A stretch of 64,000 nt of DNA from Rhodamnia argentea (lineage: Eukaryota; Streptophyta; Magnoliopsida; Myrtales; Myrtaceae). A program made the translations under genes and the position numbers. Under the pieces are notes generated by a model. The model made no database searches. It saw only the letters and a program-made list of their open reading frames with translations, and was not told the origin of the DNA. Positions 4,307 to 50,218 of this stretch are shown here, piece after piece. Location: positions 21,748,283-21,812,282 of the forward strand of contig NC_063156.1 in NCBI RefSeq assembly GCF_020921035.1. Direction: 5' to 3'. Within the stretch, counting starts at the first letter, position 1; the number at the start of each line of letters is the position of its first letter.

Positions 4307-5517
4307 ACGCCTCTCAAATGAACCCATTCAACTCTATTAGAGATGACGTGACATTTTGAATAGTTTTGTTAAGTAATAGTTAGACTAGGGAAAAGTGTCC
4401 AAAAAGTTCCACACTTTTTGCATTTGTATCAATTCGGCCTTAAATCGTTTGATTGTATCAATTTAGTCCTAAACTTTTTGCATTTATGTCAATTCAGTCC
4501 TAAACCTTTCAATTGTGTCAATTCAGTCCTAAACCTTTTGCATTTGTGCCAATTCAATCATAAACCTTTCAATTATGCTAATTTAATCATAAAATTTTTG
4601 CATTAATGTCAATTCAATCATAAACCTTTCATTTGTAACAATTTAGTTCCGCACCTTTTGTGTTTGTGTCAATTGAGTCCATCCGGCCAATTTTAATCGA
4701 AAATCGCTAATATGGACGTCGATTGTCCTATATGGTAAGGTCGGCGTTAATGTGGAAATTTTTAAATATAATTTTTTTATTTTTAATAAAATTTTTGGTT
4801 TTTTTTATTTTCTTTTGTTTTGGGATATAGGGGCGGTGACCATCGCCAGACCTGGGCAACCCCTCATGACCCTCGCCCAATGTTGGCGAGGTCACCGGCC
4901 CTCCGTCCAAAAACAAAACAAAGTAAAAACATAGAAAAAAACCAAAAAAATTACTAAAAAATAAAAAAAAAATTGATATTTAAGAAATTTTAAAAAATTG
5001 TCCATGTCGGTGTTGACCTTGCCACGTAAGACAATCGGCATTCACATCGGCGATTTCCAACCAAAATTGGTTAAATAGACTCAATTGACACAAATGCAAA
5101 ATGTTTAAGACTAAATTGTCACAATTAAAAGATTTAAAACTAAATTGGCACAAATGCAAAAAGGTTTAGGACTAAATTGGTGTTATTGAAAAGTTTATGA
5201 CTGAATTGACACCAATACACAACGTTCATGACTAAATTGGGATAATTGAAAGGTTTATGACTAAATTGGCACTAATGCAAAAGGTTCGGGACAAAATTGA
5301 CACGATTGAAAGGTTTAAGACTGAATTGGCATCAATGCAAAACTTTTAGGACTAAATTGACATAATTGAAAATTTTGGGACTAAATTAGCGTGAATCCAA
5401 AATGTCGACACGGACGCCTCTCAAATGAACTCATTCAATTTACACTTGTCGAATTTGGTCACTCTCTTAGAGATGACGTGACGATTTGAATAATTTTGTT
5501 AAGCAATAGTTATGGAC
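4307..5517. repeat. Long direct repeats bracketing family A copy 1
   Basis: The segment 4307-4387 (starting ACGCCTCTCAAATGAAC) recurs in the same orientation at 5414-5517, immediately outside the two ends of the foldback element. Both copies contain 'ttagagatgacgtgac' and end in a 'caatagtta'-like sequence. The right copy holds an extra block of about 22 bp. The repeats are about 80-100 bp, far beyond a normal target-site duplication. Confidence 0.75.
4388..5413. mobile_element. Foldback element, family A copy 1 (Mutator-like MITE)
   Basis: The left arm (about 4388-4690) and right arm (about 5040-5400) are arrays of roughly 30-40 bp units of the type 'caattcagtcctaaacc', oppositely oriented in the two arms. 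The element can therefore fold into one long hairpin. The centre (about 4830-4905) is GC-rich and itself palindromic around CGAGGTCACCGGC-like sequence. The left terminus is GGGAAAAGTGTCC; the right terminus has lost the matching end. It has no transposase. The family is Mutator-like by analogy with copy 2, which has a perfect 9-bp target duplication. Confidence 0.7.
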
Positions 5518-6464: not shown

Positions 6465-6730
6465 GGGCATGCATGGCAACACTTCTGCTCTATAAATCAA
6501 CTTCTAGTCAGAAGTTGGTTTTTTTGCTTCTGAGGGGAAGTTAATTTGTTTACTTCTGGAGAAAAGTAATTTTTTTTTATTCCTTTAAGTGGCTCCAAAA
6601 TTATTTTTGGGGGAAAAAAAAAAGCTCTAGAAATAGAAAAATGAGATTGCATAATCAAACGAATTTCTCGCTCCGAAGTTGCGTTACCGAATGGAGTTTT
6701 GCTCGAGAAGTGTTGTCAGGCGGCCTTAAT
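6465..6730. mobile_element. MITE-like repeat, family F copy 1
   Basis: Starts GGGCATGCATGGCAACACTT and ends with the inverted counterpart (AGTGTTGTCAGGCGGCC). The interior is non-coding with several 'acttctg/agaagt' inverted motifs. A sister copy lies at 7854-8146. Termini of the 'GGCAACACTT' kind resemble hAT or PIF-type MITEs, but the target duplication could not be resolved. Confidence 0.55.
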
Positions 6731-7338: not shown

Positions 7339-7853
7339 GTGCGTGTCAATACGACAAGTAGGTTTGACAATTATGGAAGCGATTGCTTTTGAATTTTTTT
7401 TAACTTTTGGCTTCATTTGTTTCGCAGAAAATGAATTATTTAAAAATAATTTTTTCCGGAAATGATTGCTTACAAAAACAAATGAGCGAAATTTTTTTTA
7501 TGGTCTATGAAAATATTAAACATACATTGTTGTTGGTAACAAGAGTACTTTTCATTTGGTAACTAATTTGAGGGATGCCATCAATCATTTTTAGAAAAAT
7601 ATTTTTTAGATCATTTATTTTTTGCTTGACTTTTGGATTTTGAGATATGTTTGAGGCCCTATCAGTAAGCCTCGTAGAGTTTAGAATAAGTTTGAAAAGT
7701 TAATTCCATGAGTACCCTAGAACCCAAACCCGAACCCGATTAACCATATTATTTTTACATCATATGCTAAATTACATATGGATATTTGTGTCGGGACTAG
7801 TCCGGATTTATAATGGGTATCGGGTCGGTTTCATAGTTTTCTTATGTCCAAGG

Positions 7854-8146
7854 GCATGCATGGCAACACTTTCACTCTATAAATCAATTTCTAGCTAGAA
7901 ATTGATTTATTTTACTTCTGCTTTTAAGCATAAGTTTTTTCTACTTTTGAGTAGAAGTTGATTTTTTATACTTCTTCAAGTAGCTCCAAAACTACTTTCG
8001 GAGGAAAAAAATACTCAAGAAGTAAAAAAATGAAGTTGCATGGCTAAACGGATTTTTACTCTAGAAGTTGCGTTATTAAACTGATTTTTGTTCTAAAGCA
8101 TTTTTGGAGGAGAAATTCTACTTTAGAAATATTGTCATACACACCA
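7854..8146. mobile_element. MITE-like repeat, family F copy 2
   Basis: The left end shares GGGCATGCATGGCAACACTT with copy 1 at 6465, and the right end (ATATTGTCATACACACC) is its imperfect inverse. Internal motifs match copy 1 in order (GTAGCTCCAAAA, then GAAGTTGCAT, then GAAGTTGCGTTA). Non-coding. Confidence 0.6.
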
Positions 8147-8526
8147 ACGTTTACAGAAGTGATTTCAAGTTTGAGTTGAGGCTAGATTTTGATGCATATA
8201 TGTAAGTATGTATGATGATATTTACTAATAATATTTAGTGATTTTTATATCATATAAACATAATATCGGAGGTGGAGAAAAATTGGATCTTCAGTTGATT
8301 GTGAAAGCGAAACGATGTCCCCGTCGCATGAAATGGTGCGGCGAACCATTTTGTCCCAAAAGGTACAACGCCCGGAAATTTACTCGTGAATTTTCTGGGG
8401 AGATGCGACATTTGAATTTTATTTAAAGAATTTCGGCTCTTCAAATTTAACACACTCGTTTGCGGGAAAAGGCATTTGAAAAGTCATAAACATTTTATAT
8501 TTGTGTCAATTCCATCATAAACCTTT

Positions 8527-9572
8527 GGGAAAATTTCGTTTAAGGGCCCAAAGTGTCCTCAATTTTTCAGATAAGGACTCGAAGTGGACGTCGTTTCGGA
8601 TAAAGGCCTAAAATGCCCTTTTTATTTTAAAGAAGGGCCTGAGCAAGGGTATTTTAGTCATTTCATTTTTTTGAACTTTTTTCCTTTTTATTTCTGCCCT
8701 AGCTCACCAGTGGCCACCCACCGGCGAGGGCAGCAGCGGCCTCGCCGGTGGGTGGTGACTAGTGCCCTCACCAGATCTGGCCGACAAGCGTTAGCTAGAA
8801 GAGCGCCCTGACGTCGGAGCCGTCGTTGGCCAAGGTGATAAAGGCCGACACATACATCTTGCTGTCCTCTGGGTTCTTGCTGTCGGGGAAGAAGTAGATG
8901 GCCTAGTCATAGCCCCTGATCTTGAAGACATCGCTAGAGATGAACTTCCCAGCCCCTATCCCCTTGGCCAACGAGTAGCCGCTCATCGTGAACTCGTGCG
9001 AGCCGTTCATCGTCTGGCTGATCGACGTCGAGCCGCACTCGCCGTCGTTGTAGGGCATGATCGGAGCACTCATCGCTTGCCTTGCTCCCGGTGGCATGAG
9101 ATCGCGACGAGGTATGCGGCAGGGGTTTTGGAATGGCGAGTGGGGGGACAATCTATCGGGGTGGAGAGGGGTTAGAGTTAATTATCGGAGACGTACGGCG
9201 GAGGTCGACGGCGGGAGGATTCACTAATCTGCTGCGATTTTGAGATTTCGCAAGTAAATCATTAAATTTCCGTCGGTATCTTCCCCATGGGAGGGCGAAG
9301 AGAGTAACAAATCTGTATTCGAAATGACTTTTTTTTTTTCTTTTTTTAAAATTTTTAAAAGTCAGAAAAAAGGAAAAAATGGAGAAAAAAATTAAAATGT
9401 AAAATAACGAAAAAGTCCTTCGAGCCGGACCGTTTTTTGAAACACTATGGCCACTTCAGGCCCTTAATTGAAATATAATATATCATTTTGGACCCTCATT
9501 TGAAACAAAGTTTACTTGAGACCTTTATTTGAGAAAATAAGAGGACTTCGGGCCCTTTTTTGGATTTTTTCC
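8527..9572. mobile_element. Pack-MULE-like element carrying a gene fragment
   Basis: Inner element of the nest, flanked by a perfect 9-bp duplication TAAACCTTT (8518-8526 and 9573-9581). The terminal inverted repeats are long and imperfect: the left begins GGGAAAATTTCGTTTAAGGG and the right end reads as its inverse (GGGCCCTTTTTTGGATTTTT). The repeats extend more than 100 bp inward, with repeated 'aaggcctgaag'-type motifs. The core is GC-rich and holds a minus-strand fragment of a MATH-BTB gene (8771-9073). Long inverted termini, 9-bp duplication and captured host gene sequence together define a Pack-MULE. A relative lies at 30274-31837. Confidence 0.85.
8771..9073 (-). pseudogene. Captured MATH-BTB (BPM-type) gene fragment, two nonsense codons
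   Basis: Read from the ATG at 9071-9073, the minus strand encodes [16 protein letters not shown], then [40 protein letters not shown]. This matches the start of the MATH domain of plant BPM proteins, substrate adaptors of CUL3 E3 ligases. The invariant Trp expected after GGYD is now TAG (8903-8905). The frame continues as [13 protein letters not shown], then [19 protein letters not shown], followed by a second stop (8795-8797) where family members have Glu, then LTLVGQ before similarity ends. Only about 100 of roughly 400 residues are present and the BTB domain is absent. Non-functional as protein; it could feed antisense or small RNA. Confidence 0.85.
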
Positions 9573-10350
9573 TAAACCTTTCAATTGTGCCAATTTAGTC
9601 TAAATCTTTTGGATTTGTGTTAGTCGAGTCTATTCGGCCAACTTTGATAGGAAATTGCTGATGTGGATATTTTTAAATATTATTTTTTTATTTTTAATAT
9701 ATATATTTTTTGGACAGAGGGCCGGTGACCCTCGCCCGGCCCAAATCTCGGTGAGGGCGTCGCAACCCTCACTTTGGCCGCCGACCCTTGCCGACTCTCT
9801 GTCCAAAATCAAAACAAAGTAAAAAAAACAAAAAATTACTAAAAAATATTTAAAATATCCACATTAGTATTGCCATGCCATATAGAACGACCGATGTCCA
9901 CGTCAACAATTTCCGATCAAAATTGATCAGATTGACTCAATTGGCATAAATGCAAGATGTTTATGATTAAATCAGCACAATTGAAATGTTTAGGAATGAA
10001 TTGACACAAATGCAAAATGTTTAGGTTTCTTGGGCAACTATTCCCTCGTTTGCTTTGTTGGGTCTTAAAAAGATCAAATTAAGGCTTAAAATAATACTAA
10101 CAAATTCATGTCTATAACTCTCTTCTTCTTCTCTATCATACTATAAGATTGACTCTTTGAGTTCATGATTAAAGAACACTTTGAAATGCATGAATATTGT
10201 GTTCTTATAGAGGCAATGTACCATACGGTTCGTATGTCCGTAAGTGTCGCTTATACCGAGAAAGCTTTCGGGAGGTGCCTTCCTCCAATCTATATTTCTT
10301 TATTTTCTTCTTTCGATTTGATTTTTTCCATTTCCTATTTTAATTTTTTG

Positions 10351-28172: not shown

Positions 28173-29994
28173 TCAGATCATGGTTTCTCGAGGCATCTTC
28201 CCCCCTCCTTCCCTTATCTTCGCCACAAACTCGCCGAGATTCTTGTCCGAGCTCCCGCCTTTGCTCACAGCTCTCTTAGCTCTGTCTTTCCAATTCAAAG
28301 CATTCTTCTTGAACTCTTCACTTCTCTCTCCCTCCACAACTTCCCTCACGCACATCTCTACTTCTTCCCTGGTCACCGTCCCTTGCTCGCCCTTTCTGGC
28401 TCTCAGCCCGACTCGCCACTTTTCCTCCAGAAACTTGGCATTGGTCGCCTGGTCACTCCACAGTGGGACCCCCACCATGGGCATGCCTAGGCTCAATCCC
28501 TCCAGGGTCGAGTTCCATCCGCAGTGTGTCACGAAGCAGCCCACGGCACGATGAGCTAGCACCTCTAATTGGTCGCACCATTCCACAACTAGCCCTCTAT
28601 TCTGGATTGAGTCAAGGAACTGGATGGGTGACTTCAGCTTATGCTCGAAATCCTTCAATACCCAAATGAAGTGCTTGTTGGTTGCTTTCAGGCCAAATGC
28701 TATTTCTTCAACTTGGTCCGAAGAAATGTTTCCCATGCTCCCGAACGATACATAAATCACCGAACCCAGCGGTCTTTTGTCAAGCCATCTCGAGCACTGG
28801 TCACTGGTGGGGTTCCAGAGACTGCCTCCATATGATGTGTCCCCGTCGATCTGCCGGTCGACATAGGCTGATGGTACCAATGGGCCAACCATCGCCAACG
28901 GCCAAATTCCAAACAAGGCCTTCACAAGCTGATACATGAAACAAAGTAACAAAATTAACCGACGAAAAGGGGCCTGCAAAAGCAATCATTAATTTGCACC
29001 TCCAATCTAGATAAACAGGACCACCAAAATACTTTGTCCAAGCGCATGATTGGATTTCAGACAATCCTAATCTCAGACCTGAAAAGGGTGTGGTGAATGT
29101 CTAAGCAATTTCAAAGAACATCGCAATCAGGATCTGTTGCTCTAATTCTTCTCTATCATCTCTCTTCCTGCCTGATTATCTCGACACTATTGATGATGGA
29201 GCACGCAAATAGCGTATATCATTTTGATCGAGTAATGCCCTTACAGAATCACTGAAGTATCATTTCCATGTGATCAGTGTCAGACAACGAGGTAACTTAA
29301 AAGGAATTACTTCTCAAAATCTTAAAAAGCTCCATGGACAAGAAAGGCATATGCTCACCTCAGCCTCCAACTCTTCAAAGGAATTGCAGAATACCCAGTC
29401 ATTTTCTTCCAGGCGAGCAAATTTCTCCATAATCAAAGCCAAATAAGCCGACTGACTCTCAGGATACGCAAGAAAGCTAGGTAAGTCAGAGAATTCAAGC
29501 AGAGGAAGCCCGGGCAGCACGATGGGCAGCGCATCGGGGCACAGTGGAGAAGTCAGCCTACCCTGGTGAATATACCAGAACAAGGAGCAGACAGAAGCTG
29601 AGTTGGTTAATAAAACAGCTGCATAAATCCCAAAGGTTTTCGCCACATCAAGAGCCCATGGAAGCAATGAATCATACACAATACAGTTCACAGGGTGTTC
29701 CGTTTCATAGGACTTGGATATGAGCTCAGATAGTGTTTTCGAGCCCACTCTCCTGAACGACTCTACGTATGCTTGTGTGCTTGGAGCTTGCTTGTACCCA
29801 CCCTCATCAAAGCCATCAGAAATCGGCTCAACATGCACCCTCTCTGCTTTAATGGAGCCAATGGTGTAATGGGTGGTGGCTAGAGTGGCCCTGAGGCCTT
29901 TGGAGGCCAAGCGCTTGGCGAACTGGAGAAGTGGGTTGATGTGGCCCTGAGCGGGATATGGGAGCACGAGGACATGACCTTTCTGATTCTCCAT
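28173..29994 (-). CDS. UDP-glucosyltransferase, UGT74 family
   Basis: Family 1 glycosyltransferase that transfers glucose from UDP-glucose to small acceptors in the cytosol. UGT74 members act on salicylate, auxin-type acids, thiohydroximates and other carboxylates; the acceptor here cannot be told. Two exons, 29994-29359 and 28928-28173, join in phase after FEELEAE at the intron position usual for the group, giving 463 residues. Catalytic His18 lies in PYPAQGHINP and the partner Asp108 in NCIVYDSLLPWA. The PSPG sugar-donor box runs about 329-372 (starts WCDQLEVLAH, contains THCGWNSTLEGLSLGMPM, ends SDQ); the final Gln fits UDP-glucose. UGT74 assignment rests on GPLVPSAYVDRQIDGD and the WNPTSDQC motif. 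No damage seen. The antisense frame at 28180-28554 is a shadow. Confidence 0.95.
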
Positions 29995-30273: not shown

Positions 30274-31837
30274 GGGAAAAATCCAAAAAAGGACCTGAAG
30301 TCCTCTTATTTTCTTAAATAAGAGCTCTAAATGATCTCTATTTCAAATAAAGGCACGAAGTACCCTCATTTCTCAAAAAAATAAAATGAAATGAATATTA
30401 TTTCAAATAAGGGCCTGAAGTAACCATAAAAACTCAAAAAATGACTTGATTTCAAAGGTATTTTTGTCTTTTTACTTATTTGGTTTTTTTCTTTTTTTTT
30501 TAACTTTTTTGTGTCCGTTTTACATTTTTTTCCCTCCACTCTCCCTCTTTCCCGATGCGACCAAACCCTTACCTAGAGATGGCCAAAATAAATCGTGGGC
30601 CCGAAACCGACCCGGAACCGGCCCGTTAACCGGGCCCACGGTTCCATAATTTTTGGAACCGCCTAGAACCACCGGTTCCGGGCCGGTTTTTTAAAAAAAA
30701 AAAAAAAAAAGGAGGCTCGGAAAAAAATAACCATTGGGCCTAGGAACCGGCGATTCCGAACCGGAACCAGAATTGGTCGTTCCAAACCCGGAACAGGAAC
30801 CAACCCTTTAAGGGCCGGTTCCGATTCCACCTTTTTCAAGAACCGGAACCGGCCACCTCTACCCGCCTTACCCACACTCTCTTTTCTTTCTTCTCCTTCG
30901 TCTTCGTCTTCTCCTTCTTTTTCCTTCCGTTGCTCACGACCACCCCCTCCATCTTCGGATGCCGGCCATGCGTCCACCTCAACCCACCTGCAGCCGCGCC
31001 GCTCGACCGTCGGTCCGACCCTCTCACCGCCGCCACCTGCGTTCCGAGCCCCCGCACCCGACGCCGAGAGACCCACGAACCCATGAGCTCGATGAGGTCC
31101 GACCCTTATCTCCTTCTCTGCTCACCGTCGCCAACCACCCACTCAACCACCGACTCCACCTCGCGCCACAAGCCATTTGTTCGATCGCCGGCCCGCCCTC
31201 CTGTCGCCGCCAGATCCAAGCCCGAGAAGCTCGGATCTGCACCCGACCCGGTGCCTTGAGCCGTCGTGCCACCAGAGGACCGCCACTGCCTTCTACGAGA
31301 CTCGACACCACCCTTAGCCTTCTTAGTCGCGACCCACCGCCGCCCCGAGGCCGTGCTCTTGCTCGAGCGACCCCTGCCTTGATCCGGGCGACGACCCGCG
31401 GCCCCCGATCCGGGCGTGGGCCGCCGATCCCACACAGATCCGGGAGAGGGCCCGACCTTCTCTCAATGACCCTCACTTTTGGCTAGTGACCCGCCGGCCT
31501 TCGTCGCTCTCGCCGAGCCCACATCAACGATGGGTAGGCGGCCACACTGGCGGGAGGGGCGGCCCTCCCGTTTGTGTGGCTTTTTTTTTTCCTTTTTTTT
31601 TTTAATTTACAAATAAAAAGAAGGAAAAAAAAGATGAAAATGAACAAAAAAAAAATAAAATGTGAAAGGACGAAAACACCCTTCAGGCCGGACTCTTTTT
31701 TGAAATGTTATGGCGACTTCTGACTCTTAATTGAAACACATTTTGTCATTTTGAATCCTTATTTGAAATAGAATTCACTTTGAGCTTTTATTTGAAAAAA
31801 TAATAGGATTTCAGGCCCTTTTTTAGATTTTTTTCAC
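30274..31837. mobile_element. Mutator-like element, family B copy 2, GC-rich core
   Basis: Ends are long imperfect inverted repeats related to the Pack-MULE at 8527: left GGGAAAAATCCAAAAAAGGA, right the inverse of GTGAAAAAAATCTAAAAAAG. The flanks TTGCATTTC (30265-30273) and TCACATTTC (31838-31846) agree at 7 of 9, a decayed 9-bp duplication. The core (30870-31560) is very GC-rich and gives long overlapping frames on both strands (175, 150 and 137 codons). All are Pro/Arg/Ser low-complexity and resemble no family, so I call them compositional artefacts. The core might be a captured host fragment too diverged to recognise. A hAT-like MITE is nested at 30574-30861. Confidence 0.75.
30574..30861. 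mobile_element. Small hAT-like MITE nested in the Mutator-like element
   Basis: The inverted termini TAGAGATGGCC and GGCCACCTCTA enclose 288 bp dense in GGTTCC/GGAACC and GGCCGGTT motifs, the same subterminal vocabulary as the element at 10351-11378. A clean 8-bp target duplication was not found. An A-run of about 19 lies inside (30693-30711). Confidence 0.65.
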
Positions 31838-32348: not shown

Positions 32349-35300
32349 TTAACATCTCTGAATTTCACGTTGACGAGTTCTTCTCATGATGACAATCTTT
32401 CTAACCCAGAACCACTTCAACACGCTAAATAATTTCTTCCATCTCTTCTGAGCATTGGCTATGGCAACAGCTGACGGCTTCAGCAGAAACCCATTCACAG
32501 CGCATTGCAGATCAGCTTGTGATTCGAAATTCGTGCTCTGAGATGGAAGGGGACAATCAGAGTCGAAGAATTGCAGATGATCCTCATCAAAGAAATCTTG
32601 GCTCATCGACCTCGCATCACAAATCATGGAGGTGGCAACTTGACTGGGGAAACTCAGGGTTTGATTGTATCTAAGACCCATGTCGTCTATACCGTGCAAT
32701 GTATAGTCGTCTAAGCCACTAACATCTCCCGTGGAGTAGATGGATGACATAATATCTGGGGAAGATGCATTTGGCGGGGCATAGTCAAATCCACTTATCC
32801 TTTCACAAGACAAGAACCTGCAAGCGTTCAAACCCTCGGTCTTTGGTGAGCTCGAGTTGCATGGAGCGCTTGATACATTTGAAGAGCCAGCGATGAGACA
32901 TGCTTCTTCGTCAAAAGAAACTACCTCTTCCCAGTGCTGGAAGGCAGAAATAACCAAGTTGTGGGCATCCACCTGGAAAAAAAAATACACTTCCATTAAC
33001 TCAGAAAAGCAGTTGAAAAAAGGATAACAGGTATGATGAACAAACAGATCCAAGGTGAAAAGTAGGGGGGTTTACCATCTCAGTTTCAGAGAGCTTTTCA
33101 ATAGGAACATACTGACAATCTGAAAGTAATCCCATCACTTGTCCCACAAGATTGAAGACGACACCAGTTTTTAGCTGTGAGGTAGGAGGGCAGTATAGAT
33201 ACACCCTTTTATCAATCACACAAGTATGCGCATGCTCCACGGTAACTTCCCACATCTTGGCTGACATACCAGTGCCAAGAATCTGGACATACATGATCAA
33301 AACCAATAAGAAGTTTCCAGAGAGGAAAGGTGATGCTTGCTTAACTATAATTATTGTACCCATGTATGTCAATATATGTGCACTAAAGCTTAAATCATCA
33401 CATTTGCAAACTAGAGAACATCATGCATGTTTTGAAGATGAATTTTGATCGAAAGAATTCCAAGTCAAAACTTAAATCAGGAGAGATCAATTAATTACGT
33501 GTCGGAGCCTTGAAGGGTCAATGTGCAGCAGTGTCAGAAAATCCTTCACAGTGTGGATGTTTTCCCGACTGAGGCGTTTGTGGAAAGCTCCATCTTTCCC
33601 AATCTTTTCCAATCTCCATACTTCATCAAGCAAGGAGGGAGGGTGGTGCTTCTTGTACACTGCAAGCAGAACCAGACACAGAAAGATTTCCATTGATCTC
33701 TTCGCTTTGATAATTCGGTATCAAAAATTGCATGACATAAAACCAAAAGAAAACATGCATAGAAGCGATTACTTTCTAATCCACAGAAATGGTGTATTAG
33801 GATATTCTGTGATTTGGTACTCTACAAATCATACAAATATGTCATACTATATGCACTTACGTTCTCCACGGTGATCCCTGACAATGAAGGATTCTGTCTT
33901 TGCTTCCTTTATTCTAATCCCATCAAAGTTATCTATAACTCGTGCCCCTATTCGGAATCTACGGCTCCTAGTCCAGCTTGAATTATCAGTGAAAGCAATC
34001 TCAACCAAATAACAGACACCATCTTTAAGATTGAGAATTGCTTCTCCTGTAAGAAGAGGCTTCTTTCCTTCCCTTTCTCTGACAATATTGTTCTTGAATT
34101 CTTCAACAGTCCAATTATCGGTCTCATCGCTGTCAAAGTCGCCCTCCAGAACTACAATTTCAACCTTGGCTGATGACTCAGGCCCAGAATCAACGATCTG
34201 TCCACTAAGAGCATCAACTAGAGCTATTTTAACAGCAGAACATTCTTCCCCCTCAATTCTGGCTCCAGTAAAGACAGGTAGAGAGAGACCGCTCATAAAC
34301 TGCAATTGTAAGCTTCTTGTTTCGGAATGAGGTACATCTTTCTCAAAACTCCTGGACAGAAATCGAAAGGTGATTAAACTGATGAATAATGGCCTGGAAA
34401 AGCAGTTGTTTTAACCCCAGGTGAGACAACTCCTGGATTAAATGGATTCGATTATGCTTACCTTTTCATGGAGTTCATGTACTTTTTCAAGGCAATATCG
34501 ACTTCCTCTTTAACCTGAATTCAACAAAGTCAACTCTAATTGATGTTAATTACCCAAACAACCACATTATTTGTGTACGAAGAACTTGAAGCATCATGCA
34601 TTGTTCTAGGTTAACAGGATGGAAAGTTTCCTTCGAGTACAAAAGCATTTAAAAGAACCACAATCACCAAAACTAGAATCAATAGCTTTTCATGTAGGTA
34701 CTAACCATCGTTTCAAAAGACCCATGATACTGAAGCTTAAAACTCGTATTGATAAGAAAAACAATACCGAAGCAACTAAACACCTCCTAAAGCAAAATGG
34801 ACAGATGCTTAACATGGTTAGATAAAGATCCCACTAAAGAACACAAGTAAAGTTAAGCATGAACTGTTGTAGTTGGAAAAACAAATTAAGAGTTATCAGC
34901 ATGTTCCATCATCATTAAGTTGAAGCAAGGTCAAATGCCAATTAAATCAGACAATTACCTCGAAATGACTAACAAATGCTGTTGGTTACTTTCCAAAAAA
35001 ATGAACTTACCACTTTTCGAATTAAAGGCTCTAGAATTGGCTCCAGCAGATGCTGAACAGGTTGCATCTTCATCACTTCAAGTACCACACTAGACAAAGC
35101 AAATATATATGTTAATTCCCAAGACAAGTAAGAATAGAGTACCATCCAGCAAGCCTCAGAAAACAATATTTAATCCTTCCACAACATATAAGGACAAAAG
35201 GTGGACAAAAACTACATCCTGTAAACATTAGAGGAAGAGAAGAATTCATTGGCTCCTCCATTTTTCTGACTCCTCAAAAGGAGTAACATATTTGAAGATT

Positions 35301-48413: not shown

Positions 48414-50024
48414 TCAGAAATCTGATGACTTTGCACTGTAGACGTTCCTCCCACCAACACCGCCAGCTCTGCCGCTAGTCCCGCTAAGTTGAGCAGACTC
48501 CAGGAGCGCCTCCCAGTCCACATTCTCTTCCTCCCCATTTTCATCCCTCTCTCTCACCATCTCCAACAACCTCTTAGCCTTATCTCTCGCCCTCTCGCTT
48601 CCTCTCTTCTCAATCTCCCTCAGTACATCCTCTCCCCTCACTTCTTTCATCAACCCTCTAAACCTAAAATTCCCATGACTCAATGCATAAAGCGCGGCCA
48701 CACAATTTTCCTTATCCAACTTGGACTTTGCCTCGTTCCCTCTCAAAAGCCCAACCAAAACTGTAACCGCATTACCATCGAGCATAGCTGACCTTCCCTC
48801 AACACAAGCAGCCAAATTGCAGAGAATAAGCAATACCAGGCTCAACAAATTTCCTGCTTTCACCATTTCCAGCAGCCTCGGCACGGGATTAAGCTTCACT
48901 AACTTCATCCTATTACTATTAACCAGAGTCAAATTATACAAAGCGAGAGCAGAATCATGCCTAGTTCGCTCGCTATCCGATCTCAAAGCATTGAACAATG
49001 CCGGCAAAGCACCTAAAGCCCCAATAGCCATCCTGTTATCTTCCTCTATGGCCAAGCTAAATAGAGCACCAGCAGCATGATCTTGGGCTTCGCTAAACCC
49101 ACCGTTCAACACCTTAATCAAAAGAGGGACCACACCAGACCTCACAATTCTCACCTTGTTCGAATTCTCGAGCGATAAATTGACCAGTGTAGCAACAGCA
49201 TTCACCTGTACATGGCAGTACTTCGAAACAAGAAGCGGCTTTAGGGCAGAGATCACTCTTGGAGTACAAAGAGCAGACCTCCTATGTTCTTGCGTTCTAG
49301 TGATCTTTCTCAGCGAAATAACCGCCTGTTCTTGCTCGAAGATGTCACTGCTCTTCAGCTTCAACACCAGTTCCTCTTCTTCACAGCTTAAAATAGGGCC
49401 TAGGGCTCGTGTAGGGTTTTCGATTTCTTGAAATTCCGAGGAAGACGATGAGGAGGAGGAGGAATAGCAACAGGGGCGAGTCAGAGGGGTCTCTGGGCTC
49501 GCCCCAATGACCACCGACTCTTCCGACGAGCTCGAGTAGAACCGCTCAACCGGGTGAGCCAACTCGCTCACCGCGTGCTCGTACGTCACCGGCGGGTTCC
49601 CCGCCACGTTCTTCAGTAGCTCCCTCTCCGAAACCCTAATAAGCCCTCCACAATCTCCTTCCTCCCGTTGCCGAGACGCCATCCTCGTACGGACAACCTT
49701 CTCTACGGATGCGTACTCCAGAGCGAGCGGGTGCTCGACGCCCGATTTCTCGCACCAGCGAAGGATCGCCGACTTGATGGCTAAGTTGGGGAAGATTGTT
49801 TCGAAGTCGGGCTTCGACCCATCTTCAAGAATCGGCGCAAAGCTCAAGTCTTTGCACACCTGGACGGAGACGCGGTCAAAGGTCTGACCCGAGGACACGA
49901 CCACCGGGTCCGCCATCAGCGAGCCCGCGATCGAGCACAAGAACTCCTTCGGGGGTTCAGGCTTCGAAGGAGAAGCCGAGCGAGTGAACGAGAGCCGCCA
50001 CTTGTATTTGCCATTGCCACCCAT
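48414..50024 (-). CDS. U-box/ARM-repeat E3 ubiquitin ligase, PUB38/39/40-like
   Basis: Plant U-box (PUB) E3 ligase: the U-box recruits an E2 and the armadillo repeats bind substrate. Intronless, 536 residues, similar to Arabidopsis PUB38/39 (about 550). The start MGGNGKYKWRLSF matches the basic start of that group. The U-box spans about 26-100: PPKEFLCSIAGSLMADPVVV, SSGQTFDRVSVQVC, then PNLAIKSAILRWCEKSGV. The canonical CPI of the first loop reads C30-S31-I32. A Ser-rich linker (about 160-200) precedes ARM repeats at about 215-510, with VNAVATLVNLSLENSNK, AAGALFSLAIEEDNR and DSALALYNLTLVNSNR. The C-terminus has ALLESAQLSGTSGRAGGVGG. No stop or frameshift. The gene ends well clear of neighbours and has CT-rich upstream sequence. 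Confidence 0.93.
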   Translation of the reverse strand: MGGNGKYKWRLSFTRSASPSKPEPPKEFLCSIAGSLMADPVVVSSGQTFDRVSVQVCKDLSFAPILEDGSKPDFETIFPNLAIKSAILRWCEKSGVEHPLALEYASVEKVVRTRMASRQREEGDCGGLIRVSERELLKNVAGNPPVTYEHAVSELAHPVERFYSSSSEESVVIGASPETPLTRPCCYSSSSSSSSSEFQEIENPTRALGPILSCEEEELVLKLKSSDIFEQEQAVISLRKITRTQEHRRSALCTPRVISALKPLLVSKYCHVQVNAVATLVNLSLENSNKVRIVRSGVVPLLIKVLNGGFSEAQDHAAGALFSLAIEEDNRMAIGALGALPALFNALRSDSERTRHDSALALYNLTLVNSNRMKLVKLNPVPRLLEMVKAGNLLSLVLLILCNLAACVEGRSAMLDGNAVTVLVGLLRGNEAKSKLDKENCVAALYALSHGNFRFRGLMKEVRGEDVLREIEKRGSERARDKAKRLLEMVRERDENGEEENVDWEALLESAQLSGTSGRAGGVGGRNVYSAKSSDF

Positions 50025-50218
50025 TTTCCAAAGCTCGAGCTGTAATAGCTTTCAACAAAGTGGGGGGTGGTCAAGTGTTTCAGTGAAGGCCGAACATGGA
50101 TGGGGCTTTCAAAGGGTTTGGCGGATTGAGAGAGCCATCAACGTTGAAGACGCGAGAGGGAATGGCAGGTGCTGGGTTTTGGGTGGAGTTCAGTGGTTTT
50201 ACGAGAGGGGAGGAAATG

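Follow-up and report, generated by a model that had tools for sequence, protein, structure and literature searches.

A Mutator-like element of Rhodamnia argentea that very probably captured the start of a BPM (MATH-BTB) gene

Pack-MULEs favour the 5' ends of genes and are moved by the MURA-type transposase of an autonomous relative, and the older work on them in rice is reportedly that of Jiang and Hanada. In rice, tomato and other plants, these elements have long terminal inverted repeats (TIRs), a 9-bp target-site duplication (TSD) and a fragment of a known gene taken from an unlinked parent, and the DNA taken is GC-rich (PMC3310237, PMC4858842 and PMC8277862). The first of these describes promoters within the TIRs and, for rice and maize, a bias towards GC-rich DNA (PMC3310237), the second describes 24-nt small RNAs and methylation over rice MULEs (PMC4858842), and the third describes gap filling and, in animals, microhomology for such elements (PMC8277862). 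BPM (MATH-BTB) proteins are presented as CUL3 adaptors in PMC6883508 and PMC3519589. A limited literature search yielded no earlier report of MATH-BTB carried by a Pack-MULE and nothing specific on Mutator-like elements in Myrtaceae or on a Pack-MULE in Eucalyptus.

The window analysed here is a stretch of 64,000 nucleotides of the R. argentea genome (G000:C7:21748283-21812282), and the genome searched comprised 346.7 Mb in 74 contigs. The original prediction, made from the letters of the window, was that a Pack-MULE within it had captured the start of a BPM gene. We have little doubt that the locus is a non-autonomous Mutator-like element of the Pack-MULE type whose core derives from the 5' part of a BPM gene lying on a different contig, and which was inserted into an older repeat and then probably methylated and left to decay nearly neutrally (Table 1). 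It shares the long TIRs, the 9-bp TSD and the GC-rich cargo from an unlinked parent with the Pack-MULEs of rice, tomato and other plants; unlike them, it was found as one copy, carries two stops in its cargo and belongs to a plant outside those models.

Table 1. Features of the element and of its insertion site, in window coordinates.
Feature	Position	Strand	Basis
Whole element	8527-9572		1046 bp; Mutator-type, TIRs and exact 9-bp TSD
Left target-site duplication, TAAACCTTT	8518-8526	.	Exact 9-bp match to 9573-9581
Right target-site duplication, TAAACCTTT	9573-9581	.	
Left TIR, GGGAAAATTTCG...	8527-8695	+	Family sequence extends to about 8745; aligned with 6 subfamily copies
Junction zone, transposon/captured gene	8746-8775	.	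Aligns to subfamily, but poorly
Captured BPM DNA	8776-9281	-	99 codons (8777-9073) and 5' UTR/upstream (9074-9281); 84% identity, 429/508 columns
BPM N-terminus, partial MATH domain	8777-9073	-	MATH_2 match and codon comparison; TAG at codons 57 and 93
Stretch missing from present parent	9282-9310	.	AGAT-flanked; splits two pieces adjacent in donor
Outermost captured upstream piece	9311-9342	-	29/32 against donor; enters T-run common to donor and transposon
Right TIR (9371-9572) and subterminal region, GGAAAAAATCCAA... inward	9324-9572	-	Overlaps capture in shared T-run
TIR-family end sequence, GGGAAAAATCC			
Older repeat, insertion site	about 8484-8526 and 9582 to about 10033	.	Inverted repeats I2, I4; families D1, D3

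As Pack-MULE criteria we applied TIRs of about 100-500 bp and a TSD of 9-11 bp. The two TIRs are diverged, with an aligned length of about 170-200 bp, and their local alignment scored 85, while none of 500 single-base shuffles scored above 37. Between them lies a non-transposon gene fragment with an identifiable parent and, judged by frame length, no working transposase, there being no closed reading frame of at least 150 aa within 8527-9572. The TIRs are common to independently transposed elements, the identity of the right end being 79-85% among the 38 best of the listed matches to it.

When the genome was searched with the element, 40 of 1305 first-look candidates were scored, which points to a family whose copy number is probably large. 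Twenty copies (L044-L063) were fetched from places with two listed ends, their boundaries being taken from the best-scoring end alignments. With the element of the window included, an exact 9-bp TSD without wobble was found in 17 of 21 copies (displaced-boundary controls, 0/10,500), in 19 of 21 when a 1-bp wobble was allowed (3/10,500) and in 20 of 21 when one mismatch was allowed in addition (30/10,500). Eighteen of the 20 fetched copies thus share with the element both the terminal sequence and an exact 9-bp TSD (1-bp wobble), the duplicated sequences differing between copies; L059 had no TSD even with wobble and one mismatch. What sets the element apart from its own family is the core: all 20 fetched copies carry other GC-rich sequence with no match to the BPM part. 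The six subfamily copies (L044-L049) have the left end to about 8745 in common with the element, some of them partly, and then a different, GC-rich core. Seven frames from L044 and L055 gave no Pfam match.

A second family member lies inside the window at 30274-31833, close to a gene for a UDP-glycosyltransferase. In its core it resembles L055, L056 and L052 (82-85%); three of its frames were without a Pfam match, and a search around its ends revealed no exact TSD of 8-10 bp. Among the eight frames of the window scanned against Pfam, three identified ordinary genes: UDPGT (28176-28985), Calmodulin_bind (33850-34410) and a U-box protein with Arm repeats (48417-50051). Elsewhere in the family, L046 (G000:C4:18707900-18710200) has a second partial right-type TIR just beyond its end and is possibly a tandem-TIR MULE.

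The insertion site could also be recognised. When the flanks were joined without the element, two related repeats, one at 4587-4716 and one on the opposite strand at 5040-5173, could be aligned over the junction, which is an empty-site pattern, seen in diverged relatives and without a control. The older repeat is built of 60-bp units and is present, at 4395-5405 and 8484-10033, both as a large inverted array and as the insertion site of the element. Another repeat, adjoining the element, is present as two copies at 6465-6704 and 7852-8093 (D16, D17), 71-85% alike.

The cargo is read on the minus strand. As predicted, positions 8771-9073 begin with ATG and continue for about 100 codons, two of them TAG, antisense in the core of the element, and protein similarity was confirmed by a match to the Pfam family MATH_2 with X put at the stops (E 5.4e-9; 36.8 bits against a curated cut-off of 32). 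Codon-by-codon comparison with the donor identified the conserved Trp and the Glu said to have become stops as codon 57 (TGG, Trp57) and codon 93 (GAG, Glu93), both now TAG, and the 99 captured codons contain no frameshift. The span originally given needs trimming at one end: its final two residues (IW) are not BPM, the donor homology ending at 8776 and the BPM codons occupying 8777-9073. Eight matches in the PDB (best E 0.009) were to bacterial elastases, weak and without a single MATH protein, and were taken as chance.

The fragment resembles BPM (MATH-BTB) genes in its N-terminus and the first part of the MATH domain, which are 82% identical to the local parent, and differs from them in lacking the second half of MATH, BTB and BACK and in having two stops; no intact MATH/BTB/BACK set is present in the element. 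With hits accepted up to E 1, the BTB frame of the donor matched nothing in the window. At the same threshold, the remainder of the donor gene gave just 14 matches of 15-33 columns, with E 0.03 or worse, nearly all within a T-run of the donor. Since neither the BTB frame nor the rest of the donor gene has a real match in the window, we rejected the reading that the fragment belongs to a full BPM locus here; it lies between the inverted repeats, as had been proposed.

The parent was sought by a six-frame search with the fragment as query, in which all 10 first-look candidates were scored and 10 matches, including the window, were listed. The best match besides the window was G000:C5:2873686-2873982, stop-free and 82% identical over residues 1-99; the other eight were 44-64% identical, and no second genomic copy of the captured BPM fragment was present among the 10. 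At the DNA level, the likely donor sequence (G000:C5:2873685-2874173) is on a separate contig from the element and is 84% identical to the captured DNA. Its locus has three open frames, corresponding to MATH_2, BTB and BACK_BPM_SPOP, and, judged from these, looks like an intact BPM gene. A match of TIR type beyond the donor gene (L009:8-97) was dismissed; it covers the A/T-rich inner part only, and the TIR end is absent in the fetched flank. Near the parent, within G000:C5:2873685-2888296, are three additional BPM-like loci, which are diverged and share 47-49% identity with the fragment.

In a tree of eight of the 10 matches, with two weak ones left out, the fragment and the donor are sisters with support of 92/99 (below the star of the tool), and their branch lengths are 0.19 and 0, respectively. 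It is unlikely, though the best placed of the alternatives, that the source was a lost paralogue of the C5 gene and not the C5 gene itself, which would leave the Pack-MULE reading unaffected. A divergence of 16% combined with a low pairwise Ka/Ks (0.27), upstream pieces in the fragment that are absent from the present parent, and the additional BPM-like loci close to the donor on C5 would all suit such a source. Against it, the amino-acid changes in the tree are confined to the fragment branch, and when 35 nucleotide differences were polarised against three paralogues, 24 fell on the fragment side and 6 on the parent side, with 5 undecided. The C5 gene itself is the donor assumed below.

The capture proved larger than predicted. 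The start of a BPM gene was correctly recognised, and the captured DNA in fact covers 8776-9342, including upstream and 5' UTR sequence; given this homology, the capture was not limited to codons. The two captured pieces are adjacent in the donor, where they overlap by four bases (AGAT), and the extra sequence of the window at this point amounts to 29-33 bp. The stretch 9282-9310 has perhaps been lost from the parent between AGAT repeats. The 5' UTR of the fragment also has about 18 bases more than the donor, at about 9096-9114. A dead fragment thus holds upstream (9282-9310) and 5' UTR (about 9096-9114) stretches that the present parent lacks, and may retain an earlier state of the DNA upstream of the parent gene. 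In the donor, the captured part has a GC content of 0.616; the corresponding values are 0.443 in the gene outside it and 0.397 in the window.

At the left junction (8776), microhomology was suspected and then dropped, no clear case being found on alignment to the family and the donor. The right end of the capture falls inside a T-run that the donor has in common with the subfamily copies that were aligned. Exact microhomology of at least 11 bases occurred with a frequency of about 1e-4 in random placement against one family copy (L044), in a test devised after the T-run had been noticed, and the switch point cannot be placed within the run.

Taking the donor as the ancestor, the captured DNA has 58 substitutions, among them 33 GC-to-AT transitions (C-to-T or G-to-A) and 4 in the reverse direction. 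By context, GC-to-AT changes affected 15/102 CG, 11/63 CHG and 7/130 CHH sites (CG and CHG versus CHH, Fisher P=0.005), with 11/70, 7/40 and 4/79 in the coding part alone and 4/31, 4/23 and 3/51 in the upstream part alone. In a TIR control of 21 copies, the corresponding rates were 0.208, 0.137 and 0.102, CHG being little above CHH; in the window's own TIR, the counts were 3/8, 1/8 and 14/61, and the CHG excess was absent. Methylation at CG and CHG is the usual state of silenced plant transposons. From the excess of GC-to-AT changes at CG and CHG over CHH we infer a methylated copy, and the substitution pattern is probably the one expected of it.

Counted by codon, the coding changes comprise 14 synonymous, 16 non-synonymous and 2 to stop. 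A context-matched neutral simulation, with the same classes of change placed at random, gave 9.5, 20.6 and 0.9, respectively, the probability being 0.10 for amino-acid changes this few, 0.06 for synonymous changes this many and 0.24 for the number of stops or more. The pairwise Ka/Ks with the donor (0.27) is below the simple expectation for a neutral copy, but because the simulation gave P=0.10 for amino-acid-changing codons, we do not claim constraint on the fragment. It is a broken copy that appears to be decaying and whose changes since insertion were probably nearly neutral.

Such a copy could still act on its parent through RNA, and small-RNA regulation of the parent is possible on the basis of the matches between them. 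Antisense transcripts from the left TIR would give rise to small RNAs, and these would reduce the mRNA level of the parent BPM gene or cause methylation at its 5' end; we consider a working regulator of this kind very improbable. Within 8776-9341, 46 of 546 21-mers and 37 of 543 24-mers match the parent exactly, the longest exact runs being 38, 37 and 31 nt, and no exact 21-mer was found in any of four further BPM loci, which were compared out of the eight remaining matches. The fragment is antisense to any transcript begun at the left TIR, and promoters in TIRs and small RNAs from Pack-MULEs are described in PMC3310237, PMC4858842 and PMC8277862. However, the six-frame genome search found a sole copy, its decay is consistent with neutrality, and the captured piece (plus strand) folds at chance level (-198.6 versus -199.9 kcal/mol, 30 shuffles).

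The whole element folds better than shuffled sequence (z -7.9 and -16.9, 20 shuffles per strand). The captured part forms no hairpin by itself, so regulation would depend on antisense transcription or on a polymerase that copies the transcript. When up to 4 mismatches are allowed, the number of fitting 21-mers is 404 for the parent and 28, 38, 41 and 80 for the four other loci; specificity would therefore be relative, the parent being favoured and the rest not excluded. There is accordingly only a slim chance that the fragment is a source of small RNAs tuning mainly one BPM gene, with its parent favoured over the four other loci compared. If it were, tuning of one BPM gene would mean that a set of CUL3 substrates is tuned too. 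The decay-type mutation pattern points to a decaying copy rather than to a regulator.

A retrocopied BPM pseudogene lying by chance between unrelated inverted repeats is scarcely credible: an A-run (T on the plus strand) does adjoin the fragment, but it precedes the coding start and matches genomic DNA upstream of the donor gene, which contradicts retrocopying, the copy ends within the donor's first MATH frame, and the TIRs, TSD and family copies identify a transposon. A retrocopy would begin with the transcript, lack introns and close with a poly-A tail.

For the Pack-MULE, the TIRs, the TSD, other members of its family and a likely donor were all found, which supports the predicted capture of the start of a BPM gene. 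As the sequence shows, the core of a member of the TIR family gave way to about 0.55 kb of DNA from the 5' part of such a gene. This most likely happened when a broken element underwent gap repair with template switching, and the right junction presumably fell in the T-run common to donor and element. The element was inserted into the older repeat, creating the 9-bp duplication, and, as the substitution pattern suggests, then probably underwent CG/CHG methylation and near-neutral decay. It is now most likely a silenced transposon without a protein product or any further function.

The process that the element exemplifies is well known; as an example it is clear but ordinary, and it leaves the understanding of Pack-MULEs unchanged. 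It adds one gene-carrying element, a single case in which the element, its insertion site, its family and its likely donor are all identified in one genome, in which the end points of the capture are placed, one of them within a shared T-run, and in which the captured coding DNA has a methylation-like mutation pattern.
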